Assembly: GCA_001412365.1 (NCBI GenBank)
Contig: LKUE01000226.1
Coordinates: 1-21,405, forward strand
From: Desulfuromonas sp. SDB
GTDB lineage: Bacteria > SDB-A
DNA: 21,405 nt
Reading direction: 5' to 3'
How positions within the stretch are numbered: position 1 is the first letter of the stretch; every line of letters starts with the position of its first letter. The translations under genes and the position numbers were made by a program. The notes under the pieces are model-generated. The model was not told the DNA's origin, made no database searches, and saw only the letters and a list, made by a program, of their open reading frames with translations. This document shows positions 3,034 to 21,380 of the stretch, piece by piece.

Positions 3034-4194
3034 TTATTTTGTCTGGTTCATCAATGTCCTCACCACCTCACATAACAATTCCAATCCCTCACCTAAAGTA
3101 TTCTTATCAATAACCAAAGGGGGCAGTAATCTCACCAAATCCTCCCCCAATGTATTTATCAGCATTTTCCGTTCAAAACATTTCTGTTTAATACTCAACG
3201 AATTAACCGGAGTCTTCACTCCTATCATCAATCCTTTTCCCCTGACCACACAGGAAGGAGGTAAATTTTTCTGCAGAAAATTCCGGGCATATTTTCCTAA
3301 TTGCTCCACCTGCTCCATCAAAGCTTTATTGATTTTAGATAAAACCACCATGGCTGCAGAAAGAGCCAGAGGATTGGGAGCAAAGGTGGAACCATGATCT
3401 CCGGGTTTAAATATGTGTTTGTATTCTTCTGAAATCAACACTGCCCCCAGGGGCAATCCCCCTCCCAGCGCTTTGGCAATGGTGATGATATCCGGCTGGA
3501 AGTTATAATGCTGAAAGGCGAAAAATTTACCAGTCCTGCCTAAACCAGACTGGATCTCATCGGCTACGATGCAAAATTTAAATTTCTCTCTGGATTTATC
3601 CAGTAGATCAATTATATGCGGGTCAACTTCAACTACTCCCCCCGCTCCCTGGATGAATTCAAGAATTACCCCGGATATCTCCGAACCATGCTTTTTTAGG
3701 AAACCGGAAACTAATTCAGAATCATGAAACGGCAATATTTTAACATTGGGAACCAACGGTTTAAAATCCCGGGTGATCACAGATTTTCCGGTAATAGAAA
3801 GAGAACCCATAGTTCTGCCGTGAAAACTCTTTTCAAAAGCCACCACTATTTTTTTGGAGGGATCATTTTTCCTCAATAATTTAATAGCTGCTTCATTAGC
3901 TTCTGTTCCTGAATTGGAAAAGATAACTCCTCCTCCCGGGTCGAAATGGGAACAGAGCTTTTGAGCAACTTTTTCCGCCTGGGGATCAACAAAAAAATTG
4001 GAAAGGTGGATGTAGCGGTTTAATTTTTCAGAAATTGCTGTCTGCACATCCTCATCACCATAACCTAAAACATTAACTCCTATTCCTGAAAACATATCCA
4101 GATAGCCATTCCCTTCAACATCATAGATATAACATCCCTGCCCATGAGAAATTTCCATATCAAAAGGAGAATATAATTTTACTAAATTACTCAT
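3034..4194 (-). CDS. Class III PLP aminotransferase, probably acting on N-acetyl-diaminopimelate
   Basis: A 386-residue fold-type I aminotransferase of the acetylornithine (ArgD) family. It has [17 protein letters not shown] at 93-109 (phosphate binding), SFHGRTMG at 123-130, [12 protein letters not shown] at 211-222 with D212 for the pyridine nitrogen, and the Schiff-base lysine K241 in [14 protein letters not shown]. By sequence alone it could be acetylornithine, succinyl-DAP or another omega-amino acid aminotransferase. Context favours lysine/cell-wall synthesis: its ATG overlaps the 3' end of dapH by 8 bases (4187-4194), so the two are co-translated. DapH makes N-acetyl-2-amino-6-oxopimelate, and the next enzyme is an aminotransferase. 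In Bacillus that step is done by a class I enzyme, so a class III enzyme here would be a substitution. It might also serve arginine synthesis; no arg genes are in the window. Confidence 0.85.
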
Positions 4195-4891
4195 TTAAAT
4201 TTCTAAGAGCATTGACAATTTTAGATTTACCTGCAGTTTTCTCATCCACCATTTTAATAACCTTGGCGGGAACACCGGCAACCACTGAATGAGGGGGAAC
4301 TTTTTCAATTACCACTGCTCCTGCCGCCACTACCGATTGCTCACCAACTGTAATTCCTTCCAGGATCACCGCGTTAGCTCCTATTAAAACCCTGTCTTCA
4401 ATTACTACCGGAACTGCTGATGGCGGTTCAATAACTCCGGCAATTACCGCCCCTGCTCCAATGTGGCAATCCTTGCCAATAATTGCCCTTCCCCCCACCA
4501 CTGCATTCATATCAATCATGGTTCCTGCTCCGATCTCCGCTCCAATATTGATTACCGCCCCCATCATCACCACCACTCCCTTGCCAATTTCCACTCCCTC
4601 CCTGATAACTGCCCCCGGTTCTATTCTAGCCTGATACCTGGTCAGATCGGCAAGAGGTATGGCTGAATTACGGCTGTTGATTTCCAACTCATAATCAAAA
4701 ATAACTTCAGCATTATCAGCTAAAATCCTGCTGATTTCCTTCCATTCTCCAACTGCCATTCCGAAAAATTTATTGCCAAAATACTTCACCTTATCAAAGC
4801 GCACCTTATCCAGGCGTCCCGAAATGTACAGCTTCACCCTAGTCTTTTTGGGACTAGATGAAATTAGTTTAATAATTTGCTCAGCATCCAT
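4187..4891 (-). CDS. dapH: 2,3,4,5-Tetrahydropyridine-2,6-dicarboxylate N-acetyltransferase
   Basis: It acetylates tetrahydrodipicolinate with acetyl-CoA in the acetylase branch of the diaminopimelate/lysine pathway. The N-terminal start [10 protein letters not shown] is typical of DapH. The C-terminal half is a left-handed beta-helix of hexapeptide repeats, roughly residues 85-205, including [20 protein letters not shown], the loop [17 protein letters not shown] and [12 protein letters not shown] start it at ATG 4889-4891 (234 residues, close to the Bacillus enzyme), because AAGGGG lies six bases upstream on the minus strand. A longer open frame to 5017 would run through the promoter region and over the divergent gene. 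It is the first gene of the minus-strand operon and overlaps the aminotransferase gene by 8 bases. Confidence 0.95.
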
Positions 4892-4901
4892 AGTATACCC
4901 C

Positions 4902-4930
4902 TTGACTTTTAAGGTGAGAGTATATAGTAT
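4902..4930 (+). promoter_or_regulatory. Sigma-A-type promoter for the zinc-ribbon/scpA operon
   Basis: A -35 TTGACT (4902-4907) and a -10 TAGTAT (4925-4930) with a 17-base spacer. A slightly better -10, TATAGT at 4923-4928, would have a 15-base spacer. Transcription would start near 4937, and GGAGG at 4963-4967 precedes ATG 4973. Confidence 0.55.
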
Positions 4931-4947: not shown

Positions 4948-4972
4948 CATTAATTATTCTACGGAGGTTTCC

Positions 4973-7273
4973 ATGGCAGGAAATGAAGATGTGCCTATTT
5001 GTCCGGATTGCGGTCATTTAACACGATATATTCCATCAAAGAATTCATATTGGTGCACTAATTGCAGTAAATTTATAGATGTACAAGATAACAGTTCACC
5101 TTCCCCCTCTAATCAACCTGGTGAACCTGCAGAAGAAACTTCCGCAGACCAAACCGATGTTTGTCCCAAATGCGGTAACCAGCCCAGGTACATCCAGCAA
5201 TATGACCGGTACTGGTGTGAACACTGCTCCGAATACCTCCCCGAGGAATTCGGCAAAACCCACCCCGAATTAGCCAGTGCAGATGATCAAACTCTACAAG
5301 AGACTTCAGTTGCTGCTGAAGTTCAGCAAGAATCAGAACAAGCTGTGGATGTACAGAAGGAAACTGCAACTGAACAACCAGAGGCAGCTGAAACCTCCCC
5401 GGAAACTGAAATTGAATTGCCATCAGAACCTGTAGCTGAAACAAATAACCCACCTGAAGTTGAATCACCGCGGGAAACCCCGGAATTAATTTGTCCACAA
5501 TGTGGAAATAAAGTCAGGTATTTAGAACAGTATGACCGGTACTGGTGTGATACCTGTACTGAATATATGGCTCCTGATTTCGGCACCGAAGAATATCTTT
5601 CAGCTGAAACTGAATCTTCCCCCAGCCAGCATATTCCGGATAAAGGTCAAACCAAATTAATCTGTCCAAATTGCGGCAATGAGGTTCGTTACCTTCCGCA
5701 ATATGAGCGATACTGGTGTGACAGCTGTGCTGATTACATGTCTCCTGATTTCGGGAAAACCGACTCTGAACCTCAACCCGACCTGACTCCTCAAACTGAA
5801 GATATCATTCCTCAGGAAGCAATTAGCGAAAAAACCGGGCAGACATTAACCTGCCCCCAATGTCAGAGTCAATTGAGATATGTTGAATTATATGACAAGT
5901 ACTGGTGCGATAACTGTGCTAAATATATTGAAATTGAAACCCCTGTATCCGATGAATCTGAACTGCCAATTACTCCTGATCAAGAAACTGAACCCATCCC
6001 GGAATCTGAAACTTCACTCATCGAGGATATTGATGTTAAATCACTTGATTCTGAAAGTATAGATAATCTTGATCAGGAAATTGAAATTCCCCAGCAGCCC
6101 TCAGTGGAGGAGGAACAGACTGAACCTTCCCCGAAAATATCTTTTACTCCGCCAGAGGAGCCGATTCCAGAACACCCCCCCCAGGAGCAAGAACTTGATG
6201 AAAATTTTGAGGGAGAGGTGATAATTTGCCCTAAATGCGGACATGTTACCAGATATGTTGAAGCTTATGACCGTTATTGGTGCGATAACTGTTCTGAATA
6301 TCTTACTCCGGAATCCAGTGAAGAAGCCCAACCTCCCGACCAGGATCAAGAGCTTGAGCAACAGGAGATTGAGCCGGAGCTGGAGGAACCGGAAGTTGAA
6401 TACACTCCCGAAGACGAGGAACTGTTTAAATCACTGGAATCGGATGTTCTGAATCCTGAGGATATGGAAACTCAAGAAATTGAGCAGGAAGCTTCTACTC
6501 CCTCAGCTCAGCCTGAGACAACCGAACCCCCGCCGGAGCTCCCGGAAAAACAGGAACAGGCTCTTCTCTGCCCCAAATGCGATCAACCAGTTAGATACGT
6601 AGAACAATACGACCGTTTCTGGTGCGACCATTGTTCAGAGTACATGCCGGTGGAATTCGGCAAATCCGCTCAGACTGCATCAGCAGAAAGTCCATCAACC
6701 CCTCCTTCTTCCGGTGCTGAATTGGTTTGTCCTGACTGCGGAAATGATGTTGTATTTAACCAGCAGTATGAACGTTATTGGTGTGAAATTTGCAAAAAAT
6801 ATATGCCTTTGGATTTCGGAGAGGAAGAAGTTTACATTGAAGCAGCCCAGTCTATTCAAAGTGAAGAGGAAGAATCTGAACCCGAACAACCTGAACAAGA
6901 AATCTCCGCTGACATTAATATTCAACATGATGTTACCCCGGAAGTACCTGAATCCGAACAATCAATTGAAAATACCTATTCAGAACAACTAATTACACCG
7001 ATTCAATCCGGGGAACAGTCTCTTGCCCAGGAAACTGCTGAAAAAGAACTGCTCTGCCCGGAATGTTCATCAACTCTCCGCTTCATTGAACAATATCAAC
7101 GGTATTGGTGTGATAATTGCTCAAAATATATGCCTGCTGATTTCGGCATCCAGGCAAAAAAGAAGTATTTTTGTCCTAAATGCGGAGTAGAACTAGCTCG
7201 ATGCCATCCTTGTAAGAAATACTGGTGCCAACAATGTGATCAATGTTACTCACCAGACCAACTGTCAGGCTAG
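4973..7273 (+). CDS. Protein with ten zinc ribbons separated by acidic disordered linkers, function unknown
   Basis: A 766-residue cytoplasmic protein without signal peptide or membrane segment. It holds ten copies of one module, each with exact spacing C-x2-C-x14-C-x2-C. First and last Cys are at 10/31, 64/85, 174/195, 231/252, 294/315, 419/440, 533/554, 586/607, 695/716 and 734/755. The module consensus is CPxCGxxVRY, then [14 protein letters not shown], often ending in PDFG. Linkers of 17 to about 103 residues are rich in Glu, Pro, Gln, Ser and Thr with almost no basic or bulky residues, so probably disordered. Single ribbons with this RYxxQYxRYWC look are common as accessory domains and may bind nucleic acid or protein; a ten-fold array is not a family I recognise. 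The protein should bind ten Zn2+ (or Fe). GGAGG sits five bases before ATG 4973, and scpA follows after 15 bases. Confidence 0.85.
5000..7237 (+). repeat. Ten-fold in-frame repeat coding for zinc-ribbon modules
   Basis: The 66-base core of each module begins at 5000, 5162, 5492, 5663, 5852, 6227, 6569, 6728, 7055 and 7172. The copies are diverged, but some share exact stretches: the 20-base string tatgaccggtactggtgtga occurs at 5201-5220 and again at 5531-5550. The spacing is irregular and the frame is kept, so this is domain duplication within a gene and not a non-coding array. Confidence 0.85.
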
Positions 7274-7288
7274 TTATACCGGTAATTA

Positions 7289-7999
7289 ATGGGATTTTCA
7301 GTAAAACTAGAAGTATTTGAAGGCCCCCTGGAGCTTTTGTTATATCTGATCAAAAGGGACCGCCTGAATATTTATGAAATCCCTATTGCTCATATTACCA
7401 GCGAATATCTGGGATATATAAAAATGTTGCAGGAATTAGATGTCGAACTAGCCAGCGAGTTTTTAGACATCGCCTCCCTGTTGTTGAGAATAAAAGCCCG
7501 GTCGTTATTACCCCGAACTACCGGTGATCAAGATGAGGACTTGCCTGATCCCCGGGAAGAGTTGACCCAAAAACTGCTGATGTATCAGAAATTTAGGGAA
7601 TTTGCAGATATTCTCCGGCAGCATGAACACCAAGGTCGTCTGATTTATCCAGTATCTATAAATTTCAAAGCGCCCCAAACCGAAGTTAAATCGGTTATGG
7701 ATGTAATCGAGTTAATCAGCGCAGCCAGGGAAGTTAATCAACGGATTAAAGCCCGGTCAGCAATGACTTTTATTTTAAATCTGATCCCCCTGGAGTTGAG
7801 AATTGATCAAATCAGGGAAAAAATTTCCAGATGGAAGCAATCAAAATTCAAATTTGAAAAATTACTGGAAGGCAGAACTGACCGGAACTGGATTATTGTA
7901 AATTTCATTGCAATTCTTGAATTAGCCAAAAATTCACAGATTTCCATAAATCAATCTGATGTTTTCGGAGATATATGGATACAGGTCAAGAATTTTTAA
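7289..7999 (+). CDS. scpA: Segregation and condensation protein A (kleisin subunit of SMC-ScpAB)
   Basis: A 236-residue protein. ScpA bridges the SMC heads and binds ScpB in bacterial condensin, helping to compact and separate chromosomes. The N-terminal signature FEGPLELLLYLI (10-21) is followed by the SMC-neck-binding helices (ELASEFLDIASLLLRIKARSL, residues about 53-73). An acidic loop DQDEDLPDPREEL and a C-terminal winged helix follow, ending in FIAILELAKNSQI. Length is close to the usual 240-260. No scpB follows; the next gene is recJ-like, so scpB must lie elsewhere. The start is ATG 7289, 15 bases after the zinc-ribbon gene, with only a weak ribosome binding site, which suggests coupling or a shared transcript. 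The end overlaps the next gene by 25 bases. Confidence 0.93.
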   Translation: MGFSVKLEVFEGPLELLLYLIKRDRLNIYEIPIAHITSEYLGYIKMLQELDVELASEFLDIASLLLRIKARSLLPRTTGDQDEDLPDPREELTQKLLMYQKFREFADILRQHEHQGRLIYPVSINFKAPQTEVKSVMDVIELISAAREVNQRIKARSAMTFILNLIPLELRIDQIREKISRWKQSKFKFEKLLEGRTDRNWIIVNFIAILELAKNSQISINQSDVFGDIWIQVKNF

Positions 8000-9438
8000 A
8001 CCAGGTATTAGCCAACAGGAATCTCCCTGAAAATTTTCTCCAGCTAGACGATCCCTGCCATAACTTTTATCTCCTTCCTTCCAGTTCTGCTGTTTTAAAT
8101 AGAATTAAATTAGCCCTGGAAAATAAACAAAAAGTTTTAATCTGGGGAGATCAAGATGTTGACGGGATCACCGCAACCGCTATTTTAAGTGAAAGCCTTA
8201 AACAGCATAATCCCCATGTAGTTACTCATATCCCCGACCGGGGCAAACAGGGTATTGGATTTAATCTGGATATTTTAAAAAAACTGATAAATAGACATCA
8301 GCCCAACTTGGTAATTACAGTAGACTGCTGCAGCCGGGATTTAAAAGCGGCAAAGTATTTAGAACAACAGGGTATTGACTTCATCATCACCGATCATCAC
8401 GAGATTGACCATGAACTCCTGCTTGAATTAGAACATTGCCATGGATTTATGAACTGCAAAAGAACCGCCAGTGAATATCCTTTCCCCTATTTGGCGGGAT
8501 GCGGTATTTCTTTGAAAATCAGCTTAAACTTTTCACAAAATGAGTACTTATGGATTTTAGCCATGTTGGGGACCATAGCAGACCGGGTGCCCTTGAGGGA
8601 TGAAAATCGAACCATAGTAAAAAAAGGTCTGCTCTTAGTAAATTCTCTGCAGCCTCAAAACCTGGTCAATTTACTTTATCCTGATTGTAAAAATTTTCCT
8701 CTATCCGTTAATGATATTAAGCAATATTTAATTTCTCCCCTTTCTTCTGACTTCATTGACCAGTCCAAATCAGCAGCGCTGGAAGTACTGACCGAAACCA
8801 GTTCATCTGATTACGCCGCTATTTTAGTGCAGAGATCCAGGGAGTGGAACCAGCAACGCATGCAGGGAATAGAAATTGCCGGGGAAAAAGCGGAGCTTTT
8901 AGGAGACTTTACTTTTTGCTATCTTCCCGAACTTCCCCGCTCCTTATTGGGAACTATTGCCAATTATCTAAGTAAGATTTATTCAAAACCGGCAATAGTA
9001 ATCGGAAATTTAAACCAGGGGCTCCAAACAGTTGAAGCCAGAACGGTGGCTGGTGAAATTCTCAGTGTGCTGGACGCTCATTCCTCTTTATTCACTTCTC
9101 ACGGAGGTCATCTGAAGGCAGCGGGAGCCAGCATTCCCCACCAAGAAATTGAAACATTCCGGTCAAGTTTAGCCAATTACAAATATCCCCTTAATTTGAC
9201 CAGAAAACTGAGAGTTGATGTTAAAATATCAAAACTACAAGCAATTCCCGAAATTCTAGAATTACTGGCACAATTAGGTCCTTTTGGTCAGGATTTTCCT
9301 GAAATAAGCATAGAAATTCCCGATTTTTCATCTCCATCTCCGGTTGACAACCGAAATATTTTCCTGTTAGATGAATTAGGAAAGTTAAGACCAGCAGAAA
9401 TTATTGACGATATTTGGGAATTTACCTGCTCCCCATAG
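7975..9438 (+). CDS. RecJ-like DHH/DHHA1 phosphoesterase (single-strand DNA exonuclease)
   Basis: A 487-residue protein with the metal-binding motifs of the DHH superfamily: GDQDVDGITATAIL with D59, D61 and D63, VDCCS at 116-120, TDHHE with D140-H141-H142, and GTIADRVPL at 199-207. The DHHA1 motif HGGHLKAAG (376-384) follows. LAQLGPFGQDFPE near 431-443 matches the LxPFGxGNP entry to the RecJ OB domain. RecJ degrades single-stranded DNA 5' to 3' in recombination and repair. The protein is shorter than usual RecJ (about 550-580): the part after the PFG motif is only about 50 residues, so the OB fold is reduced. The ATG at 7975 lies inside scpA and has CGGAG four bases upstream. Other DHH nucleases are possible, but RecJ-like fits best. 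Confidence 0.8.
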   Translation: MDTGQEFLNQVLANRNLPENFLQLDDPCHNFYLLPSSSAVLNRIKLALENKQKVLIWGDQDVDGITATAILSESLKQHNPHVVTHIPDRGKQGIGFNLDILKKLINRHQPNLVITVDCCSRDLKAAKYLEQQGIDFIITDHHEIDHELLLELEHCHGFMNCKRTASEYPFPYLAGCGISLKISLNFSQNEYLWILAMLGTIADRVPLRDENRTIVKKGLLLVNSLQPQNLVNLLYPDCKNFPLSVNDIKQYLISPLSSDFIDQSKSAALEVLTETSSSDYAAILVQRSREWNQQRMQGIEIAGEKAELLGDFTFCYLPELPRSLLGTIANYLSKIYSKPAIVIGNLNQGLQTVEARTVAGEILSVLDAHSSLFTSHGGHLKAAGASIPHQEIETFRSSLANYKYPLNLTRKLRVDVKISKLQAIPEILELLAQLGPFGQDFPEISIEIPDFSSPSPVDNRNIFLLDELGKLRPAEIIDDIWEFTCSP

Positions 9439-9442
9439 AGAT

Positions 9443-10390
9443 ATGAAAAGAAAGGAAAATAGTAAAAAAGTGAAGAAAGAGCCAGAACTTCTATCATCTC
9501 AGGGATCTAAACTACTCTCCGCAAAATCAGACAAACCCACTGCTTACCCTTCTCCAATTACCATAAGTCAGGATACCTTCAATCTTTATTTGGAAGATAT
9601 ACGAAAAGTTCCCCTGCTGACCAAAGAACAGGAATTGGAACTGGGCAAAAAGATAAAATACGGAACCCCCCAGGAAAAACAATGGGCGGTAAATCAACTG
9701 GTCCGGGCAAATTTAAGGTTTGTGGTATCAGTTGCTCTTCACTACGACCGAGAAAAAAAAATGATCACCGACTTGATCAACGAAGGCAATATTGGATTAA
9801 TTAAAGCTGCCAATAAATTTGATCCGGATCGAAAACTGAAATTTATATCTTATGCAGTATGGTGGATTAGACAACATATACTTCATTATATCATCTCTCA
9901 TCAGCATTTGGTAACCATCCCCTTCAACCGGGCTGGACGATTGAGAAGAGTGATTAAGGCAAGTCAAGAAGCCGGTTATGACATTGAATCCAGCTCTGCC
10001 CCCCTTTCAGAAATCGCCCAGGATTTGGATATAGAGGAAGATTCATTAAAAGAAGCTTATCAGTTTGCCAAGAGGGATATTTCTCTGGATGTCATGGAAG
10101 GCGGAGCTTACGATACGATGATGGATTCCTATCCATCCCCGGAGGAGTTCTACCTGAAAAAAGCAGAAATTCAGGAGATTAACCGGCTGATGAAAAATCT
10201 CACCGAGAGGGAACAGTATATATTGAAAATGTATTTCGGGCTGGGAGATAATTTACCCCGTTCTTTTGAAAAAATTGGCAAAAAATTAGGAATTTCCAGG
10301 GAAAGAGTCAGACAGATTAAAGAACGGGCTTTACAGAAAATGAGACAATCTCCTGAATCATCAAAGCTTCGGGAACTAACTGGAAATTAG
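9443..10390 (+). CDS. Sigma-70 family RNA polymerase sigma factor, RpoD-like short form
   Basis: A 315-residue group 1/2 sigma factor. Region 1.2 is DTFNLYLEDIRKVPLLTKEQE (44-64). Region 2 runs about 84-150, with NLRFVVSVA, DLINEGNIGLIKAANKFD and KFISYAVWWIRQHIL for core binding and -10 recognition. Region 3 spans about 156-230. Region 4 is 252-302, with LTEREQYILKMYFGLG and ISRERVRQIKERALQKM for -35 recognition. Region 1.1 is replaced by about 40 Lys/Ser-rich residues. FISYAVWWIRQ followed by TIPFNRAGRL recalls the short RpoD of Bacteroidota. It may be the housekeeping sigma or a close paralogue; this cannot be decided here. I start at ATG 9443, four bases after the recJ-like stop. An in-frame TTG at 9404 would give 13 more residues inside the upstream gene and lacks a ribosome site. 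Confidence 0.9.
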   Translation: MKRKENSKKVKKEPELLSSQGSKLLSAKSDKPTAYPSPITISQDTFNLYLEDIRKVPLLTKEQELELGKKIKYGTPQEKQWAVNQLVRANLRFVVSVALHYDREKKMITDLINEGNIGLIKAANKFDPDRKLKFISYAVWWIRQHILHYIISHQHLVTIPFNRAGRLRRVIKASQEAGYDIESSSAPLSEIAQDLDIEEDSLKEAYQFAKRDISLDVMEGGAYDTMMDSYPSPEEFYLKKAEIQEINRLMKNLTEREQYILKMYFGLGDNLPRSFEKIGKKLGISRERVRQIKERALQKMRQSPESSKLRELTGN

Positions 10391-10418: not shown

Positions 10419-10877
10419 ATGGGAAAGGTCCTCATCATCATGGGTTCTAAATCAGACATGGAAATTGCGGAAAAAGTTCAAGAAGTACTTCAATCATTTG
10501 AAGTGCCCTTTCATACTGAAATCAGTTCCGCCCACCGCATGCCGGAAAAGACCAGAAAATTAGCCTCCCATGCCCAGGAACAAGGTTATCAGGTTATTAT
10601 CACCATTGCCGGATATTCAGCTCATTTAGGAGGGGTGGTGGCAAGCCTCACTATCCTTCCGGTTATAACTATCCCCGTGAGCAGTTCTCCCCTCCAGGGA
10701 CTGGATAGTATTTTTTCCACAATTCAAATGCCGGGAGGAGTACCTCTGGCGACCATGAGCTTAGACAAAGCCGGTGCAAAAAATGCTGCTTTATTTGCCA
10801 TTGAAATTCTCAGTCTATCCGATCCCCATTTAAGAAACAAATTAAAGGAGTACCGGGTCAAATTAAGTCAATCCTAG
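10419..10877 (+). CDS. purE: N5-carboxyaminoimidazole ribonucleotide mutase (PurE), slightly atypical
   Basis: A 152-residue PurE-fold protein for the carboxyl shift that makes CAIR in purine synthesis. Class I features are MGSKSDME at 8-15, SAHRMPEK with His39, the active-site loop AGYSAHLGGVVAS with His69, GLDSIFSTIQMPGGVP, and the Ala/Asn-rich last helix AGAKNAALFAIEIL. The loop reads GYSAHLGG where class I enzymes usually have GGAAHLPG, so it is a diverged member. No purK or other pur gene is adjacent. AGGAG at 10407-10411 lies seven bases before ATG 10419, and the gene follows the sigma factor by 28 bases. Its 3' end carries AAAGGAG (10844-10850), the likely ribosome site of the next gene, and the two frames overlap. 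Confidence 0.88.
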   Translation: MGKVLIIMGSKSDMEIAEKVQEVLQSFEVPFHTEISSAHRMPEKTRKLASHAQEQGYQVIITIAGYSAHLGGVVASLTILPVITIPVSSSPLQGLDSIFSTIQMPGGVPLATMSLDKAGAKNAALFAIEILSLSDPHLRNKLKEYRVKLSQS

Positions 10878-11962
10878 AAAATCTTAATGATCTTCAGGCT
10901 CTGTTTCATCTAGCTTCCGGGAAAATTTTAATCATTCCCACGGACACAGTTTGGGGGCTGGCAGTTAAACCGGACTCCCCTGGAGCATATGCAGGTTTGA
11001 TGAAATTGAAAAAAAGAAAACCGGGAAAATCATTCCCGGTGATAACATCAGAGTTAGAACAGGGCTTAGCCCTGTTCTCAGAACCTTCTCCTCCCCTAAA
11101 ATTACTGTGCTCACAGTTCTGGCCTGGTCCCTTAACCGTAATCAGTAAAGCCCGATCCGGGATTCCTTGCCACCTCACCGATAAAAACAAATTTCTGGCA
11201 GTGAGGGTACCCCTGCCCCCCACTCCCCTTCATCTGGTAAAAGCTTTCCAATATCTGGTGGCAACCAGCGCTAATTTATCTGATTTACCCACCGGCAGTA
11301 ATATTTATAAAGTAGCTGAATCCTTCAAACCCCATTCTCCACCTTATTGGGGAAGTATGGTCAATTTACTTCCCCGTCAATCTTCCACCGTAGCCGGTTA
11401 CCGGAAAAATAAAATCGAGGTGTACCGCAAGGGGGCTCTGGATATAACCCGGATAATAAATCTGACCGGAAGCATCCGCTATGTCTGTGAACAGCCTTTG
11501 AATGTATTAATAGTTTGTAAGGGAAATACCTGCCGAAGTCCTCTGGCTGAGGTTATCGCCAATCAGATTATATCTCCCCGGTTCAACTACCGGGTGAAAT
11601 TCAACTCGGCGGGGCTGGAAACTGATCACACCTGTACCCAGCTTTCTCCGGCGGTTAAGAAAATATTGAAAAACAAATACAAATGGGAAAAAACAAAAAT
11701 ACCTCAGAAGCTCACCTCCCTGCACACAACTAATGCTGATTTTATTTTAGCAATGGAAGACCGGCAGATTGAGGCGCTTAAACAAATAGGTGGAGATCAT
11801 AAAGTATTTAAACTGACCGGCTTTTCTTCCTCCCATCCTGATATACCCGATCCCTGGGAGAAAGGGGAATCCCAATACATCCTGGTTGAACAAATGATAG
11901 CTGATGCCTTAAATGACTTTTCCGCTTATCTGAAAAAATCAGTATTTGATTTACAGCAATAG
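10862..11962 (+). CDS. Fusion of Sua5/YrdC tRNA threonylcarbamoyl-AMP synthase domain with LMW protein phosphatase domain
   Basis: The N-terminal half is YrdC/TsaC-like: ILIIPTDTVWGLA, KLKKRKPGKSFPVITSE, QFWPGPLTVI, AVRVPLPPTP and VATSANLSDLPTG, then the Sua5-type end STVAGY...EVYRKGAL. This domain makes threonylcarbamoyl-AMP for t6A in ANN-decoding tRNAs. The C-terminal half is a low-molecular-weight Cys phosphatase (tyrosine or YwlE-like arginine phosphatase): VCKGNTCRSPLAE with nucleophile Cys219, and the general acid in IPDPW. In Bacillus the separate genes ywlC and ywlE lie in one operon, so fusion is plausible. The frame is open from 10805, but no ATG, GTG or TTG occurs before the PTDTVWG motif; the first is TTG 10997, which would delete it. 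I place the start tentatively at ATT 10862, eleven bases after GGAG (10847-10850). Domain calls are firm, the start is not. Confidence 0.85.
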   Translation: MKSILENLNDLQALFHLASGKILIIPTDTVWGLAVKPDSPGAYAGLMKLKKRKPGKSFPVITSELEQGLALFSEPSPPLKLLCSQFWPGPLTVISKARSGIPCHLTDKNKFLAVRVPLPPTPLHLVKAFQYLVATSANLSDLPTGSNIYKVAESFKPHSPPYWGSMVNLLPRQSSTVAGYRKNKIEVYRKGALDITRIINLTGSIRYVCEQPLNVLIVCKGNTCRSPLAEVIANQIISPRFNYRVKFNSAGLETDHTCTQLSPAVKKILKNKYKWEKTKIPQKLTSLHTTNADFILAMEDRQIEALKQIGGDHKVFKLTGFSSSHPDIPDPWEKGESQYILVEQMIADALNDFSAYLKKSVFDLQQ

Positions 11963-12087: not shown

Positions 12088-13116
12088 ATGAAGAATTATT
12101 TTCTATCTGAACAGGATCTAAATAATTTCATTACCAAGCTAATGGATAGCTACCCGGTAATTGCCCCGGTGGCTAAAAAATCCCGGTTTGTCTTTGAGGA
12201 GTTAAAATCTCCTGAACAGCTCCGGCTGGATTACGACACCACGATTTTGCCGCCTAAAAAAGTATTTTTCCCCCCCAAACAAGATCTATTAACCTTCGAC
12301 CAGGGTTCACTGGAAGACTGTATAGATCCCCGGGAGAAAGTGCTGTTGGGAGTACATCCCTATGATATTAAAGCAATATCCTTCACCGATCAACTGTTCT
12401 CGGAAAACCATTACGACAACAATTACATGGCTAATCGGAAATCTACCATCATCATCGGATCAAATGTTCAAAATCACTATGCTCATGCCTTCTTCGGCAC
12501 TCAAGCCCAGGGAGTGAAACTACAGGGCCATGACCTGTTCATGACCAAGATAGACGGAGGTTATGTGGTGGAAGTGTTGACGGATAAAGGGGAGAAGCTG
12601 ATTAAGTTAGGGAATTTCAAGAATGCTGAAGAAACTCAGATTACCAAGGCGGCTGAAGTAAACCGCCAGGCTGATGAAAACTGTCCGGAAAAATTAAAAT
12701 ACAGTGAAACAGAAATAAAAGAAAAAGTGAGAGCTGCTTTTGAATCGGACATTTGGGAAGAACTAAGCAAACGGTGTTTCTCCTGTTCTTCCTGCAATAT
12801 TGTCTGTCCTACCTGTTACTGCTTTGATGTACAGGATCAATGGAATATTGATCAGAAATCCGGGTTCAGATTCCGCCGGTGGGATGGCTGTCTGTCCATT
12901 GATTTTTCAGAAGTGTCGGTTCAGGGGGGCACTGAAAACTTCAGGGAAACCCCTGCCAGCAGATATCGTCACCGGGCGATGAGAAAATTAGTTTATTTAA
13001 ATGATAAATTGGGGTCACCCTTATGTGTTGGCTGCGGAAGATGTTCCGGCGCCTGCACCGCGGATATTGCCAACCCGGTTAATATTGTCAACAGGGTTAT
13101 GGAGGTGGAAGCATGA
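12088..13116 (+). CDS. Group 3b [NiFe]-hydrogenase beta subunit (dicluster 4Fe-4S protein)
   Basis: A 342-residue electron-transfer subunit like HydB of the Pyrococcus soluble (sulf)hydrogenase and the AsrA-type ferredoxin proteins. It has two clusters of cysteines: C230, C233, C236, C240 (CFSCSSCNIVCP, with C243 and C245 close by) and C313, C316, C319, C323 (CVGCGRCSGAC). These should hold two [4Fe-4S] centres passing electrons between the delta subunit and the flavoprotein gamma subunit. The N-terminal 220 residues are the family domain, with PPKKVFFPPKQDLLTF and VLLGVHPYD. AGGAG lies six bases before ATG 12088. It is the first gene of the operon, and its end overlaps the gamma gene as ATGA. 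Confidence 0.92.
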   Translation: MKNYFLSEQDLNNFITKLMDSYPVIAPVAKKSRFVFEELKSPEQLRLDYDTTILPPKKVFFPPKQDLLTFDQGSLEDCIDPREKVLLGVHPYDIKAISFTDQLFSENHYDNNYMANRKSTIIIGSNVQNHYAHAFFGTQAQGVKLQGHDLFMTKIDGGYVVEVLTDKGEKLIKLGNFKNAEETQITKAAEVNRQADENCPEKLKYSETEIKEKVRAAFESDIWEELSKRCFSCSSCNIVCPTCYCFDVQDQWNIDQKSGFRFRRWDGCLSIDFSEVSVQGGTENFRETPASRYRHRAMRKLVYLNDKLGSPLCVGCGRCSGACTADIANPVNIVNRVMEVEA

Positions 13117-13940
13117 GTTTAAATAAAGAAAATATCTTTTTCCCTCAGCAAGCGGAAATAATAGAGACCAAATGGCTAAACCCGACTGAAAAGCATTTTG
13201 TGCTAAAATTGAAAAACAATGAAGTATTTGACTTCCAGCCGGGTCAAATTGTGGAAGCAGGATTACCGGGGTGGGGAGAAATACCCTTAGGTTTATCCTC
13301 ATCTCCGGTAAACCAAGATTCATTTGAACTAGTGGTGAGGAAAGTAGGCAAAGTATCCACTGCCCTGGTGGAGTTAAATCCCGGAGAGGTCATGTATATA
13401 AGGGGACCTCTGGGCAATGGATTCCCGGTAGAGGAATTTACCGGTCACCCCGTTTTAATCGTAGCAGGGGGAATTGGATTATGTCCTACCCGAAGCATGA
13501 TTAACTATATTCTGGACAAGAGAGATGATTTCAAGAAATTCACCTTATTCTTCGGATCCAGAGATATTGATTGCCGGCTGTTTACCGATGATCTGTGCAA
13601 ATGGGAACAAGATGAAAATGTAGATTTTTATGAAACCATGGATAACCCTCCTGAGAGCTGGGATAAAAACAAGGGAGTGATTACTACCCTGTTTGCCAAA
13701 ACCAGCATTGACCCAGATACCCGGGTTATCATCTGTGGTCCTCCGGTAATGTATAAATTTGTGATCAAGGAACTCCGCAAGATTGGTATTCCCGATGAGC
13801 ATGTGTTTGTGGATTTAGAAAGAAGAATGAAGTGCGGAGTAGGAAAATGTGGACACTGTCAGATTAACAATAAATATGTATGTATAGACGGACCGGTGTT
13901 CAGATATTCTGATATTCTCGGATTAGAGGAGGCAATATAA
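13113..13940 (+). CDS. Group 3b [NiFe]-hydrogenase gamma subunit (FAD/NAD(P)-binding, 2Fe-2S)
   Basis: A 275-residue flavoprotein of the ferredoxin-NADP reductase/PyrK type, like HydG of Pyrococcus hydrogenase. It should exchange electrons with NAD(P)H. A beta-barrel FAD domain carries GLSSSP (60-65) and RGPLGNGFP. The nucleotide domain has VAGGIGLCPTRS (117-128) and ICGPPVMYK (207-215). The C-terminal CGVGKCGHC with C241, C246 and C249, plus C257, is the pattern of a PyrK-type [2Fe-2S] centre. GGAGG at 13101-13105 precedes ATG 13113, which overlaps the beta gene by 4 bases; its TAA shares one base with the next ATG. Preference for NADP or NAD cannot be read off the sequence. Confidence 0.92.
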   Translation: MSLNKENIFFPQQAEIIETKWLNPTEKHFVLKLKNNEVFDFQPGQIVEAGLPGWGEIPLGLSSSPVNQDSFELVVRKVGKVSTALVELNPGEVMYIRGPLGNGFPVEEFTGHPVLIVAGGIGLCPTRSMINYILDKRDDFKKFTLFFGSRDIDCRLFTDDLCKWEQDENVDFYETMDNPPESWDKNKGVITTLFAKTSIDPDTRVIICGPPVMYKFVIKELRKIGIPDEHVFVDLERRMKCGVGKCGHCQINNKYVCIDGPVFRYSDILGLEEAI

Positions 13941-14689
13941 TGGCTAAATTAAAATGCGCTTGGTTTGACTTTGCCTGCTGTGAAGGCTGCCAGGTTGAAT
14001 TAACTAATTTTGGCGAACCATTTCTCAACCTGCTTGAATATATCGAACCGGTCGAGTTCAGAGAAGTAATGACTGAAAAAACAGATCAGAGGATTGACAT
14101 TGCCTTTATTGAAGGCTCTTTCACTAGAGAATCTGACCGTAAAAGACTGGAGTTAATAAGAGAGCGAGCCGATGTTGTAATTGCTTATGGAGCTTGCGCA
14201 GTTACTGCAGGGATAAATGCTCTTAAAAACCATCAGACTGATTACAAACAGTACGTTTACGGAAAAGATAAAGACATGCCTCATCTGGATTCTCAGTTGG
14301 CAAAACCAATTTCCGCGGCAATTAAAGTTGACTATGAAATTCCAGGTTGTCCTATTGACCGGGATGAATTTGTAAGGATAGTATCCCAGGTAATTCACGG
14401 AAGCAAACCGGTGCTACCCAAATATCCGGTTTGTGTGGAATGCAAATTAAGAGAAACAGTTTGCCGTTATGATGAAGGAGATTACTGTTTAGGAGTGGTA
14501 GCTAAAGCCGGCTGCGGAGCACCCTGCCCCGCCATGGGCATTCCCTGTGAAGCCTGCCGGGGTTTTTGCGATGAACCCAATCAGGAGTCACTGATACAAT
14601 TACTTAAAGAAAAAGGACCTTATGGCGACAAATGGGCAGAAGAAAAATCTAGAATGTTTACTGCTAATTTAAGGAAGGATTCAAAATGA
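13940..14689 (+). CDS. Group 3b [NiFe]-hydrogenase delta (small) subunit
   Basis: A 249-residue small subunit, like HydD of Pyrococcus. The proximal [4Fe-4S] cluster ligands are visible as CEGCQVEL (C14, C17), GACAVTAG (C86) and PGCPID (C137). Nine further cysteines between 165 and 210 (CVECKLRETVC, CGAPCPAMGIPCEACRGFC) fit medial and distal clusters. There is no Tat signal peptide, so the enzyme is cytoplasmic, as in group 3. AGGAGG at 13927-13932 precedes the ATG. The end overlaps the large-subunit gene as ATGA (14686-14689). Confidence 0.94.
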   Translation: MAKLKCAWFDFACCEGCQVELTNFGEPFLNLLEYIEPVEFREVMTEKTDQRIDIAFIEGSFTRESDRKRLELIRERADVVIAYGACAVTAGINALKNHQTDYKQYVYGKDKDMPHLDSQLAKPISAAIKVDYEIPGCPIDRDEFVRIVSQVIHGSKPVLPKYPVCVECKLRETVCRYDEGDYCLGVVAKAGCGAPCPAMGIPCEACRGFCDEPNQESLIQLLKEKGPYGDKWAEEKSRMFTANLRKDSK

Positions 14690-16002
14690 AAGATATTAAT
14701 ATAAATGTTCATCACCTTACCCGAGTGGAGGGTCATGGCAATATAGTAGTAAATGTCAAGGAAGGCAAGATTGAAAGATGTGAATGGCAAGTACCCGAAG
14801 CTCCCCGCTTTTTTGAAGCGATGATTAGAGGGCGCCATTATTCGGAAGTTCAGAGAATTACCAGCCGTATCTGCGGAATATGTTCAGTAGGACATACCTT
14901 GGCTTCGTTGAAAGCTACTGAAAATGCCTTGGGAATAAAAATTTCCAAACAGTCAGAAATTTTACGCCGAATGCTAAAACACGCTGAAAACTTCGATTCC
15001 CATGTTCTCCATGTGTTCTTTCTGGTCGCTCCTGACCTGTTTGGAGTTAAATCTGTATTCCCCCTGGTGGAAACTAACAGCGATGTAGTTAAAATTGCGT
15101 TAAGAATGAAAAGACTGGGGCATGAATGGGGCAGTCTTCTGGCAGGAAGAACTACCCATCCGATTAAATGTATACCCGGAGGCTGGTCTGAATATCCCGA
15201 CGAGGAACAGCTTAACCAGTTGAAAAAATTAATTGCAGACCGGGTTCCCGATGTCGAAACCACAGTAGAAGTTTTAGCTTCAGTTGCCCATAAGATTCCC
15301 GATTTCACCAGAGAAACAGAATATATCGGACTGGTGGATGAAGAGGAGTACGGAATGTACGATGGTAAAATAGGATGCTTAATGCCCGACGGGAAATTAA
15401 CCACCTATGAAGTTCAAGACTATCGCTCGGTAACTAACGAATGGGTCAGCCCCCTCTCCACCGCCAAATACACCAAACATTCCATGGACAGCTACATGGT
15501 GGGAGCACTAGCCAGAATTAATATTAATTTCGACCGGCTCCATCCCCAGGCTAAAAAAGTAGCCCAAGCCCTGGGATTTAAGGCAATTTGCTTTAATCCC
15601 TACATGAACTCAGTTGCTCAGTTTATTGAAGCCGTTCACAGCGCTTACACCACTTTGGATTATGCCGATCAACTTCTGGAAATGGGCGTGGATACTGGAG
15701 AAAAACCAGCTCAACCTACTAAATTCGGCAAGGGATTCGGTTCCACTGAAGTTCCCCGGGGGATATTATTCCACGAATACGAATATGATAAAGACGGATT
15801 CTGTGTGGGAGGAAACTGCATCATTCCCACCAATCAAAACCATGCTAATATTCAGAAAGATTTCGAAAAAATCCTTCCGGAAATGCTGGAGAAAGATAAA
15901 TCGGAAAAAGAAATCGAGTTAACCATGGAAATGCTGGTAAGAGCTTATGATCCTTGCATTTCCTGTTCCGCCCATTATTTAGATGTTGAATTTAAAAGAT
16001 AA
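14686..16002 (+). CDS. Group 3b [NiFe]-hydrogenase alpha (large, catalytic) subunit
   Basis: A 438-residue large subunit carrying the NiFe centre. The L1 motif is LTRVEGHGN (11-19), and the L2 motif is RICGICSVGH with nickel ligands C63 and C66. The C-terminal motif is DPCISCSAH (422-430) with C424 and C427. Residues 431-438 are an 8-residue tail expected to be removed after His430 by the endopeptidase encoded next. Length and the DPCISC end match the soluble NAD(P)-linked group 3b rather than membrane uptake enzymes. The predicted complex interconverts H2 and NAD(P)H; some relatives also reduce polysulfide. AAGGAAGG at 14671-14678 precedes the start. It is the last structural gene, followed by a terminator. 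Confidence 0.95.
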   Translation: MKDININVHHLTRVEGHGNIVVNVKEGKIERCEWQVPEAPRFFEAMIRGRHYSEVQRITSRICGICSVGHTLASLKATENALGIKISKQSEILRRMLKHAENFDSHVLHVFFLVAPDLFGVKSVFPLVETNSDVVKIALRMKRLGHEWGSLLAGRTTHPIKCIPGGWSEYPDEEQLNQLKKLIADRVPDVETTVEVLASVAHKIPDFTRETEYIGLVDEEEYGMYDGKIGCLMPDGKLTTYEVQDYRSVTNEWVSPLSTAKYTKHSMDSYMVGALARININFDRLHPQAKKVAQALGFKAICFNPYMNSVAQFIEAVHSAYTTLDYADQLLEMGVDTGEKPAQPTKFGKGFGSTEVPRGILFHEYEYDKDGFCVGGNCIIPTNQNHANIQKDFEKILPEMLEKDKSEKEIELTMEMLVRAYDPCISCSAHYLDVEFKR

Positions 16003-16024
16003 TCCGAATTGCTAAAACAAATTC

Positions 16025-16050
16025 AGGGAGCTGTACAGCTCCCTTTTTTT
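16025..16050 (+). terminator. Intrinsic terminator after the hydrogenase structural genes
   Basis: The stem AGGGAGCT (16025-16032) pairs perfectly with AGCTCCCT (16037-16044) around the loop GTAC and runs into seven T (16044-16050). This is a textbook rho-independent terminator, 22 bases after the alpha stop codon. The next gene starts at 16056, so it may act as an attenuator between the structural and maturation genes. Confidence 0.88.
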
Positions 16051-16055
16051 ATATT

Positions 16056-16505
16056 ATGAAATACATTTTTGGTTTTGGCTCATATTACCGGGGCGACGAC
16101 AGTATTGGGATTAGAATATGTGAACAGATCATCCTCCGGAATTTAGAAGACGGATTTAAATCAGTGGTAGTGGGTAACAACGGATCACTATTTTTGTCCC
16201 TGGTTGAACAATGTACCCATAAAGTATTAATTGTGGACAGCGCGGATATGGGGAAACTTCCCGGAGAATACTTGATTTTTTCCCCGGACCAGGTTAAATC
16301 TAAGAAATTAATATCCAACTTCAGCACTCATGAGGGGGATGTACTGAAATTGATTTATTTAGCTGAAAAAATATACGGACAACTGCCTCCTGTCGAAATT
16401 ATGGGGATTCAGCCGAAATGTCTGAACTCCGGTGAACTTTCCCCGGAATTAGATCAAAATTTCGAAAAATATTTACAAAAAGCAATTTACCTGATTAAAC
16501 ATTAA
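16056..16505 (+). CDS. [NiFe]-hydrogenase maturation endopeptidase (HyaD/HycI/HoxW family)
   Basis: A 149-residue nickel-dependent protease that removes the C-terminal tail of the large subunit once nickel is in place. The N-terminal FGFGSYYRGDDSIGIR matches the family start GxGNxxxxDDGxG. Likely metal ligands, by analogy with E. coli HybD, are D15, D61 (IVDSADMG) and H92 (STHEGD). Its place directly after the large-subunit gene makes that subunit, with its 8-residue tail, the obvious substrate. The ATG at 16056 lies six bases after the terminator T-run. There is no Shine-Dalgarno and no room for a promoter between them, so expression probably depends on readthrough or on a start inside or before the hairpin. 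A later start would cut the catalytic motif. Confidence 0.88.
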   Translation: MKYIFGFGSYYRGDDSIGIRICEQIILRNLEDGFKSVVVGNNGSLFLSLVEQCTHKVLIVDSADMGKLPGEYLIFSPDQVKSKKLISNFSTHEGDVLKLIYLAEKIYGQLPPVEIMGIQPKCLNSGELSPELDQNFEKYLQKAIYLIKH

Positions 16506-16509
16506 CAAC

Positions 16510-18765
16510 ATGACTAGACTGAAAATTAAAGCCAAAGGAATTGTGCAGGGGGTCGGATTCCGGCCATTCATTTACAAAACCGCACATCACTATAAATTAA
16601 CCGGCTTTGTTAAAAACACCTCCTCCGGAGTGGAGATTGAAGTTCAGGGAGATAAGGTGGAAAAATTTGTGGATTTTTTAAAAGAACACCATCCTCCTCT
16701 GGCTAAAATAACCGAGATAAAAGTAAGTAAAATCCCTTCTGTCCCCACGGAAAACTTTGTAATCCTGGAAAGCGAGGAAGATGTTCAGCGGGATGTTCTA
16801 ATTCCTCCGGACATCGCCATTTGTGAGGATTGTTACCGGGAATTTAACAATCCTGAAAACCGCCGTTTTCATTACCCTTTTATAAACTGTACCAACTGCG
16901 GTCCCCGGTTTACAATAATCACAGATATACCCTATGACCGACCGTTTACCACCATGAAAGACTTCGAAATGTGCGATGACTGCCACAGGGAATATACTGA
17001 TCCAAACGACCGGAGATATCATGCTCAGCCCGTTTCCTGTTTTAAGTGCGGACCTCAGCTGAAGTTGCTGAACAACCAGGGTAATTCCCTGGAGGTAAAT
17101 CCGGTAGCTTTTGCCGGAGAAATGCTACTTCAAAATAAAATAATTGCCATCAAAGGATTGGGCGGTTTTCATCTTGCTTGTTTAGCAGATAAGGATCAAT
17201 TGGTTTTAGCAATCCGCAAGAAAAAACAGCGGGGAAACAAACCATTGGCAGTAATGGCAAGTTTAAACATGATTCAGCATATAACTTGCCTCAGGGAAGA
17301 AGAGCAGGCTGCGTTAACTTCCCCTTCCGCTCCCATCGTAATTCTTAAAGTGCCTCCCCATCCTCTTATTTCCAAAGAATTAGCCCCTGGATTGGATTCA
17401 GTGGGATTCATGCTGCCCTACACTCCTCTCCATTTACTGCTATTTAGATATGTTGATAAGCCCCTGGTGATGACCAGCGCTAATTTATCCCATCAACCAA
17501 TTATGTATAAACAGAACTCTGATTTGTTAGCTTTAGCCGATTATGTTTTAACTCATGACCGGCAAATACACAGTCCCTGTGACGACAGTGTGGTTAAGAT
17601 TTTTAACCAACAGCCTTATTTTTTCAGAAGAAGCCGGGGCTATGTCCCCCAGCCCATTACCCTGTCCTTTACTTCCCCCAAAGTGGTGCTGGGGTTAGGA
17701 CCCATGCTCAACAACACTTTTTGCATGTTAGTGGGCAACCAAGCCTTCCCCAGTCAATACCTGGGAACCACAGATAATCTTAAAACAGTAAACCGGGAGC
17801 AGCAGAATATTGATCAGTTTTGTAAAATGCTGTCTGTACAGCCCCATATAACTGCAGTGGATAAACATCCGAATTTTCCCAATAGAAAATTAGCAGACAA
17901 CTTCCCCCAAAGTAAACTGGTGGAAATACAGCATCATCGAGCCCATATTGCCTCCTTACTGGCGGAACTGCAGGAAGACGGACCGGTAATTGGTATTGCC
18001 ATGGATGGAACCGGTTTTGGAGATGACCGCAAAATCTGGGGGGGAGAATTCTTTATGGGATCACTGCAAAGCCTGGAACGGGTAGGACAGTTAAAATACT
18101 ACTTTCTACCTACCGGAGAAACCGCTATCCACCAACCCTGGAGATACGCTCTTTCCCTGCTGCACAGTTTATACGGTAACGGTAAACCTACCTCCCACTT
18201 TGCAGATAAATTCACCCCTCAATCCTCTTCTGTCCTGGATATTATAAAAAAGCAGAATATCGGAGTTTTCAATTCCAGCTGCGGAAGATTGTTCGATGCA
18301 GTTGCTTCCCTGCTGGGCATAGGTCATTACAGCACTTACCGGGGAGAACTTCCTTCAGTATTACAAGGGGCAGCAGAAAGAGTATCTGTGGACAGTAAAT
18401 TAATGCAGAAAAGTTACAATTATTCAATAAGTTTTAATGATAATTACCTGGTTTTAGATATGTTACCCGCTATCGGCGAGATCATTGAAGATAAAATAGA
18501 TGTATGCTTAAAAGCTTTTTACTGGCATTTCAGTTTAGCTAAGGCTTTATTGGATTCTTCTAAAATACTCAGAGAACATTACCATCTGAACAAAGTGGGT
18601 TTGTCCGGAGGGGTATTCCAAAATACATTGCTGCTTGAAATGTTGCTTGATATGTTTAACAATAATAATTTTGAAGTTTTGATACACCGGCAGCTTCCTC
18701 CTAATGACAGCTGCATATCATTAGGACAAGCTGTGCTGGCAGCTAAAGCTGAAGTTAGGAGTTAA
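16510..18765 (+). CDS. hypF: Hydrogenase maturation carbamoyltransferase HypF
   Basis: HypF turns carbamoyl phosphate and ATP into carbamoyl-AMP and loads the carbamoyl group on HypE, the source of the CN ligands. The 751 residues show all domains. An acylphosphatase domain comes first (VQGVGFRPF at 12-20). A double zinc finger follows, with CxxC pairs at C105/C108, C127/C130, C155/C158 and C177/C180. A YrdC-like domain is next (IIAIKGLGGFHLACL to about residue 385). Last is a Kae1-like domain with HHRAH (475-479), IAMDGTGFGDD and GLSGGVFQN. Length equals that of typical HypF. It starts four bases after the endopeptidase gene, again without an evident Shine-Dalgarno, and ends one base before hypC. 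Confidence 0.97.
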   Translation: MTRLKIKAKGIVQGVGFRPFIYKTAHHYKLTGFVKNTSSGVEIEVQGDKVEKFVDFLKEHHPPLAKITEIKVSKIPSVPTENFVILESEEDVQRDVLIPPDIAICEDCYREFNNPENRRFHYPFINCTNCGPRFTIITDIPYDRPFTTMKDFEMCDDCHREYTDPNDRRYHAQPVSCFKCGPQLKLLNNQGNSLEVNPVAFAGEMLLQNKIIAIKGLGGFHLACLADKDQLVLAIRKKKQRGNKPLAVMASLNMIQHITCLREEEQAALTSPSAPIVILKVPPHPLISKELAPGLDSVGFMLPYTPLHLLLFRYVDKPLVMTSANLSHQPIMYKQNSDLLALADYVLTHDRQIHSPCDDSVVKIFNQQPYFFRRSRGYVPQPITLSFTSPKVVLGLGPMLNNTFCMLVGNQAFPSQYLGTTDNLKTVNREQQNIDQFCKMLSVQPHITAVDKHPNFPNRKLADNFPQSKLVEIQHHRAHIASLLAELQEDGPVIGIAMDGTGFGDDRKIWGGEFFMGSLQSLERVGQLKYYFLPTGETAIHQPWRYALSLLHSLYGNGKPTSHFADKFTPQSSSVLDIIKKQNIGVFNSSCGRLFDAVASLLGIGHYSTYRGELPSVLQGAAERVSVDSKLMQKSYNYSISFNDNYLVLDMLPAIGEIIEDKIDVCLKAFYWHFSLAKALLDSSKILREHYHLNKVGLSGGVFQNTLLLEMLLDMFNNNNFEVLIHRQLPPNDSCISLGQAVLAAKAEVRS

Positions 18766-18766
18766 G

Positions 18767-18985
18767 ATGTGCTTAGGAATTCCAATGAAAATCATTGATA
18801 TTGATGGAACTTCCGGAATTGTAGAAAATAAAGGAATTAAACTCAAGGTTGAACTGGTGTTAATTGATGACCCTCAGGTGGGAGACTGGGTAATTGTACA
18901 TGCCGGTTTCGCCATTACCAAATTGACCGACCAGGAAGCCCAGGAAACTTTAGAGTTGTTAAAAGAGGAAAATTTTATTGAATAA
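18767..18985 (+). CDS. hypC: Hydrogenase assembly chaperone HypC
   Basis: A 72-residue HypC/HupF protein starting MCLGIPMKI. After removal of Met1, Cys2 ligands the iron of the Fe(CN)2CO unit, shared with HypD. It then binds the immature large subunit. The small beta-barrel body reads GDWVIVHAGFAITKL, followed by an acidic helix. AGGAG at 18756-18760 (end of hypF) lies six bases before ATG 18767, and the gene overlaps hypD by 8 bases. Only one hypC-like gene is present, as expected for a single hydrogenase here. Confidence 0.96.
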   Translation: MCLGIPMKIIDIDGTSGIVENKGIKLKVELVLIDDPQVGDWVIVHAGFAITKLTDQEAQETLELLKEENFIE

Positions 18986-21021: not shown

Positions 21022-21380
21022 TGCACGAAGCCAGCATCTGTCAATCAATAATAGAAACCTCGGTTAATATCGGAACTGAGCGGAAACTTATCCGGATTGA
21101 TAAAATTTACCTGATGATTGGCAATATTCACCATATTGTTGATGAAGTGCTGGTGAATTATTTTGACATTCAGAAAAACCAATATCCTCTCATGGCAGGT
21201 GCTGAATTAATTATTGAAAATAAACCGCTGATAATTAAATGCAGTATGTGCGGTGAGCAGAATGAATTAACCGAACCTATTTTTATCTGTCCATCCTGCT
21301 ACAACCGCAATATTGAAGTAGTTCAAGGAAATGAGCTGCATATCATAAAGATGGAAGGGGAGGTTAACAATGAACAATGA
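21021..21380 (+). CDS. hypA: Hydrogenase nickel-insertion protein HypA
   Basis: A 119-residue nickel metallochaperone. It starts MHEASICQSI, where His2 is the conserved nickel ligand of the MHE motif. A zinc site is formed by CSMC (about residues 75-78) and CPSC (about 91-94). It works with the GTPase HypB to load nickel into the large subunit. I use ATG 21021, which overlaps the hypE stop in TGATG. A TTG six bases earlier would put two residues before the MHE motif and abolish the free N-terminus needed for nickel binding. The end overlaps the next reading frame by 11 bases. Confidence 0.95.
   Translation: MHEASICQSIIETSVNIGTERKLIRIDKIYLMIGNIHHIVDEVLVNYFDIQKNQYPLMAGAELIIENKPLIIKCSMCGEQNELTEPIFICPSCYNRNIEVVQGNELHIIKMEGEVNNEQ

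Follow-up and report, generated by a model that had tools for sequence, protein, structure and literature searches.

What might a bacterium do with ten zinc ribbons strung along one acidic, disordered chain, and what does the place of the gene at the head of an operon with scpA, a recJ-like gene and a sigma factor say about its partners? These questions are raised by one gene in a stretch of 21,405 nucleotides (hereafter, the window) from Desulfuromonas sp. SDB. The architecture of the encoded protein, hereafter the array, is undescribed by the libraries that we searched, and its component parts are of known kinds. The coordinates of the gene, its ribbons, and its neighbors are provided in the Table.

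Ribbons, linkers, and predicted fold

The array protein is acidic (pI 4.05). The sequence-only reading had proposed ten C-x2-C-x14-C-x2-C modules, and exactly ten non-overlapping copies of this motif occur in the 766-residue frame (starts at residues 10, 64, 174, 231, 294, 419, 533, 586, 695, and 734), compared with a mean of 0.0045 and a maximum of one in 2000 residue-shuffled versions. The inter-module linkers of 17 to 103 residues, which had been described as Glu/Pro/Gln-rich, are so by count (Glu 20%, Pro 11.5%, Ser 10%, Gln 9%), and charge-hydropathy analysis of three array proteins classes the linkers as disordered. A check for a membrane anchor, made by reading the sequence directly, revealed hydrophilic linkers and no long hydrophobic stretch in the protein. 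The earlier count of 43 cysteines is also right, and resolves into 40 ribbon ligands and three extra cysteines in or just after module 10.

Across 33 modules from four species, five columns are invariant, namely the four cysteines and W22, and Y18 and Y29 are kept in at least 90% of the modules; R13, Y14, R20, and Y21-W22 are commonly kept. The aromatic core that had been attributed to all ten modules survives as a consensus but not to the letter: the exact string QYDRYWC occurs only in modules 2 and 3, modules 1 and 8 diverge from it, and module 10 is without an aromatic core. The cysteine pattern of module 10 is C-x2-C-x6-C-x2-C-x4-C-x2-C-x2-C, and since all seven of these cysteines are invariant in the four species, the module is best treated as a different unit.

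AF2, supplied with the 33-module alignment, predicts a zinc ribbon for the single module (pLDDT 86.8), as had been expected, and the four cysteines would be occupied by zinc. The nearest folds to this model are RPB9/RPC-type, RPA, NudC, TFIIB, and PriA ribbons, all of them weak matches (Foldseek E at least 0.28, VIA Z at most 3.9).

Most of these neighbors belong to nucleic-acid machinery, a point against a protein-docking scaffold, yet one made at those low Z-scores. They raise the alternative that single-stranded DNA or RNA is bound by the ribbons, strung like beads, through their aromatic/Arg faces; the acidic linkers would then guard against unspecific binding, and the protein would act together with RecJ, RNA polymerase, or the nucleoid. 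The RPB9/RPC-type, RPA, TFIIB, and PriA likenesses, the commonly kept arginines and aromatics, the operon, and the occurrence of the same type of ribbon within a DnaA-like ATPase of other lineages (see below) all speak for such a binder. Yet ribbons bind many kinds of ligand, and the modules are near neutral to acidic, with net charges of +0.4 to −3.6 except for module 10 at +2.3; ribbons of this charge on a chain of so low a pI disfavor direct nucleic-acid binding, and we regard this alternative as somewhat unlikely.

The closest family match is to YfgJ. Ribbons 9 and 10 match the double-ribbon profile Zn_ribbon_6 (PF07191) with an E-value of 4.9e-8 and 33.3 bits, and the whole chain reaches 71.6 bits over six matched stretches (cut-off 25 in both cases). 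The solved YfgJ entries (2JNE, 2JRP) are proteins of 81–101 amino acids with one double ribbon, whereas the array has 766 amino acids, ten ribbons, long disordered linkers, and extra cysteines in its last ribbon. A model of ribbons 9 and 10 (pLDDT 76, pTM 0.38) is too low in confidence to place the halves relative to each other. As for the solved YfgJ fold, 2jrp is listed in the structural comparisons at a Foldseek E-value of 0.49 and a VIA Z of 3.0 (rmsd 5.0).

No family in Pfam, NCBIfam, PADLOC, or PHROGs describes the whole-chain architecture, so that the earlier statement that no known family has it held in these libraries and in phage and plasmid searches. The RanBP2 zinc finger (PF00641) is not among the 12 Pfam families matched at E ≤ 1, nor is zinc_ribbon_5 (PF13719) among the Pfam matches at that threshold, where HMMER filters can drop weak matches; Ruc/FmdB-type families are likewise absent from the Pfam matches. 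The module profile matches the AgmX chain weakly (E = 0.14). We do not believe the one PADLOC match (E = 1e-3), which would suggest a defense gene and arises from linker and ribbon residues; we also set aside the PHROGs matches (best 1.2e-10), mostly short ribbon stretches of families of unknown function, and matches to ribosomal S14, S27, and L37, which reflect generic zinc-knuckle similarity. A literature search returned nothing for YfgJ with zinc ribbon, nor for GltJ/MglA.

Table. Positions of the array gene, its ribbons, and other features of the window.
Feature	Position	Strand	Evidence
Promoter-like site TTGACT -17- TAGTAT, overlaps TATATAGT	4902..4930	+	scan, four species
Shine-Dalgarno GGAGG of array gene	4963..4967	+	four-species comparison
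Array gene (ATG at 4973, stop at 7273)	4973..7273	+	ORF
Ribbon 1, divergent core	5000..5065	+	motif
Ribbon 2	5162..5227	+	motif
Ribbon 3, module used for structure model	5492..5557	+	motif, AF2
Ribbon 4, closest to ribbon 3 (71% over 35 columns)	5663..5728	+	motif, alignment
Ribbon 5	5852..5917	+	motif
Ribbon 6	6227..6292	+	motif
Ribbon 7	6569..6634	+	motif
Ribbon 8	6728..6793	+	motif
Ribbon 9, counterpart of sister-genus ribbon 7 (70%)	7055..7120	+	motif, alignment
Ribbon 10, terminal, three extra Cys; with ribbon 9 matches YfgJ-type double ribbon	7172..7246	+	motif, profile
scpA (SMC-ScpA, PF02616), 15 nt 3' of array gene	7289..7999	+
recJ-like DHH/DHHA1 gene, overlaps scpA	7975..9438	+
Sigma-70 family factor, regions 1.2, 2, 3, 4	9404..10390	+
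purE (AIR carboxylase)	10419..10877	+
Fused Sua5/TsaC-type domain and low-molecular-weight phosphatase (sua5/LMWP)	10880..11962
Sulfhydrogenase-type [NiFe] hydrogenase genes, then maturation protease and hyp-type genes	12088..21380
dapH-type acetyltransferase, divergent, conserved upstream neighbor of array gene	4187..4891	−
GH18-like (weak) protein, N-terminal hydrophobic segment	589..1578	−

Distribution and selection

All four genomes in our set that belong to this phylum carry the array gene; since they are separate genomes, we reject an assembly or frame artefact. The three homologs, from a sister genus, have nine ribbons each, compared with ten in the window protein; in one of them (G003) two contig ends carry the gene in parts, with 4 and 5 ribbons, so nine is a minimum there. 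Outside the phylum, a single-module profile found no array in about 380 genomes (the sample, drawn from across the domain, numbered 386); a single match was obtained in each of 18 further genomes, and several of these are generic Trm112-like ribbons. A second genome set, centered on a carrier of the DnaA-like form and overlapping the first, contains at most two ribbon copies per case outside the phylum. Phage or plasmid cargo was considered and rejected, as tblastn gave no match in either the phage or the plasmid collection and viral contigs showed no pattern match. The array protein is real, conserved, and lineage-restricted, and is made by a poorly known group of uncultivated bacteria.

Between sister species, the ribbons share 76–82% amino acid identity, in the range of scpA (75–81%), while the array linkers share 34–49% and require gaps. 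Ribbon identity is still 71–79% when the cysteines are left out. Synonymous sites are saturated between these species, so we give no dN/dS ratio. In 53 of 54 cross-species comparisons, the best match of a ribbon is the one that occupies the corresponding place in the array (mean identity 0.72, vs 0.41 at different positions), which indicates that the number and order of ribbons were fixed before the sister species split and that the surface of each ribbon, beyond the number of zinc sites, has been kept. Taken together, slow ribbons, drifting linkers, and positional identity argue for folded modules selected well beyond their cysteines.

This pattern bears on metal storage, one of the roles that had been suggested. 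About ten tetrathiolate sites on each acidic chain could buffer or store zinc. Ligands alone would suffice for a store, however, and the other ribbon positions are conserved like scpA; the ribbons are not interchangeable, and a store needs no aromatic face. Structural zinc ribbons normally bind zinc too tightly for exchange, and the 21-kb window showed no gene for a zinc transporter or regulator. With its non-cysteine residues strongly conserved and position-specific, the array is very unlikely to be a zinc reservoir.

In comparisons across genera, clear alignment is limited to the C-terminal end, where window ribbons 9 and 10 correspond to sister ribbons 7 and 9. Ribbons 3 and 4 of the window protein seem to be the product of a later duplication. 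Some linker stretches are also kept in the sister genus, such as an N-terminal SDIPF and, ahead of ribbon 6, an acidic stretch that ends in ISVVGAGE (L026:8013-8027 and about 9450-9585), and are possible short binding motifs.

Operon, expression signals, and related ribbons

As had been noted, the array gene heads scpA, a recJ-like gene, and a sigma factor gene, and the order is conserved in relatives: array-scpA-recJ-sigma-purE-sua5/LMWP is kept in G001 and G003, and in G002 array-scpA-recJ is kept up to the end of the contig (L026) after recJ. All four genomes share the order divergent dapH, array, scpA-recJ, with the array gene adjoining scpA in each. With a true dapH start at about 4891, dapH and the array gene do not overlap extensively. 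Where the window has its promoter-like site, the three relatives have TTGACA...TATATA, and the Shine-Dalgarno region ACGGAGGT is kept in all four species.

Further out, gene content beyond sua5/LMWP differs in relatives. The sua5/LMWP frame is open 5' of its first ATG/GTG/TTG (10997), and because the Sua5 N-terminus lies there, the gene probably starts at a rarer codon. The hyp-type genes, by reading their sequence, are hypF, hypD, hypE, and hypA. On the other side, the GH18-like gene has the same company in each of the four genomes, namely trmH/SpoU-type, ahcY, aminotransferase, and dapH genes.

A redox role can be considered against these surroundings. On oxidation the ribbons would release zinc, and the disordered chain would then hold unfolded proteins. 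The architecture of 43 cysteines, zinc ribbons, and disorder would suit such a holdase or sensor, and the window encodes a sulfhydrogenase-type [NiFe] hydrogenase, typical of an anaerobe. There is a reported precedent in Ruc of Mycobacterium tuberculosis (Rv0991c), which, like the array, combines a zinc-binding Cys4 domain with a hydrophilic disordered region (PMC7448276); unlike the array, Ruc has one ribbon and is a redox chaperone linked to chaperone genes. Around the array gene, chaperone and stress genes are absent nearby and the promoter is housekeeping-like, and the conservation of non-cysteine residues and of each ribbon's identity is a further argument against this role, which we consider quite unlikely.

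The hint at chromosome or transcription work that had been drawn from the operon gains from a gene order kept in the whole sampled phylum, but loses from the 26 scpA loci of other genomes, none of which has an array beside scpA. Nor did those loci reveal an ancestral single-ribbon gene, only unrelated ribbons (e.g., RadA-like). SMC was found in all four phylum genomes and ScpB in G000 and G001; profile and protein searches gave no ScpB in G002 (94% complete) or G003 (100%), where ScpA and SMC are present. Both the failure of the scpA linkage to extend to other phyla and the two genomes in which ScpB was not found count against the docking scaffold that we prefer (see below). It is from operon position only that we infer a condensin or transcription link, and ScpA or RNA polymerase as the partner is a guess made on the same basis. 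A stronger version, in which the protein is a PopZ-like acidic scaffold, co-expressed with ScpA, RecJ, and the sigma factor, that uses its zinc ribbons as stickers to cluster condensin or RNA polymerase, seems unlikely to us; if true, it would make the array a clade-specific bacterial chromosome or transcription organizer.

The ribbon itself is found in another setting. In seven genome families outside the phylum (f72, f185, f260-f264), DnaA-like AAA+ proteins carry one or two such ribbons, set in a disordered, Pro/Glu-rich spacer that separates the ATPase from the C-terminal domain; carriers include G074, G210, and G393, and the module profile matches with E-values down to 1.4e-12. In the products of three of the genes (L065:61-2295, +; L105:6956-8965, −; L061:134-1993, +), the N-terminal domain has no Pfam match and the C-terminal domain is conserved. 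At the two loci read, the neighbors include CheY-type response regulators, with a histidine kinase in L105. These proteins are possibly undescribed signaling or localization ATPases. They resemble the array in placing the same ribbon within a Pro/Glu-rich disordered region, and differ in that an ATPase carries the one or two ribbons, and in having regulator or kinase neighbors instead of scpA. A ribbon combined with an acidic, proline-rich spacer is therefore a recurring theme, independent of scpA. We looked for a ribbon-bearing DnaA-like gene in the window's own genome, and found only an apparently ordinary DnaA (447 aa).

A possible docking scaffold

The explanation that we tentatively prefer is that the array is a phylum-restricted, cytoplasmic, flexible scaffold that docks one or more protein partners by multivalent weak binding. 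A flexible multivalent scaffold had been proposed in the sequence-only reading, and it fits the predicted fold, the disorder, and the constraint; the metal storage offered beside it has become less likely. Every one of its nine or ten ribbons would form a small zinc-stabilized knob with a conserved aromatic/arginine face, and the long Glu/Pro-rich linkers would hold the knobs apart and keep them soluble and mobile. The array could thereby use avidity to gather several copies of a single partner or a set of related ones, and the double ribbon at its C-terminus, which is YfgJ-like, would be an end module of a different kind. The most economical guess for the partner is a protein of chromosome or transcription housekeeping, a guess suggested by the conserved housekeeping-type promoter, the strong ribosome site, and the position at the head of the scpA-recJ-sigma operon.

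Of the readings considered, multivalent protein docking fits best. RanBP2/Nup358 and Nup153 carry several small zinc ribbons on a flexible chain, as does the array, and bind RanGDP with them; they differ in the kind of ribbon and its spacing, and in being eukaryotic. A bacterial zinc ribbon may also serve as a protein-docking module, as in ZitP and AgmX (GltJ): the lone zinc-finger domain of ZitP binds directly to the polar scaffold PopZ (PMC5182065). Unlike the array, these are membrane proteins with a single ribbon, which is of the zinc_ribbon_5 class.

The known multivalent scaffolds in which folded binders recur along disordered linkers are mainly eukaryotic, and bacterial scaffolds such as PopZ are built from other parts. 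Here, a chain of nine or ten ribbons is encoded next to scpA in every sampled genome of a phylum-level lineage. The system is compact and testable, and one ribbon could be made as a peptide of roughly 40 amino acids for partner screening.
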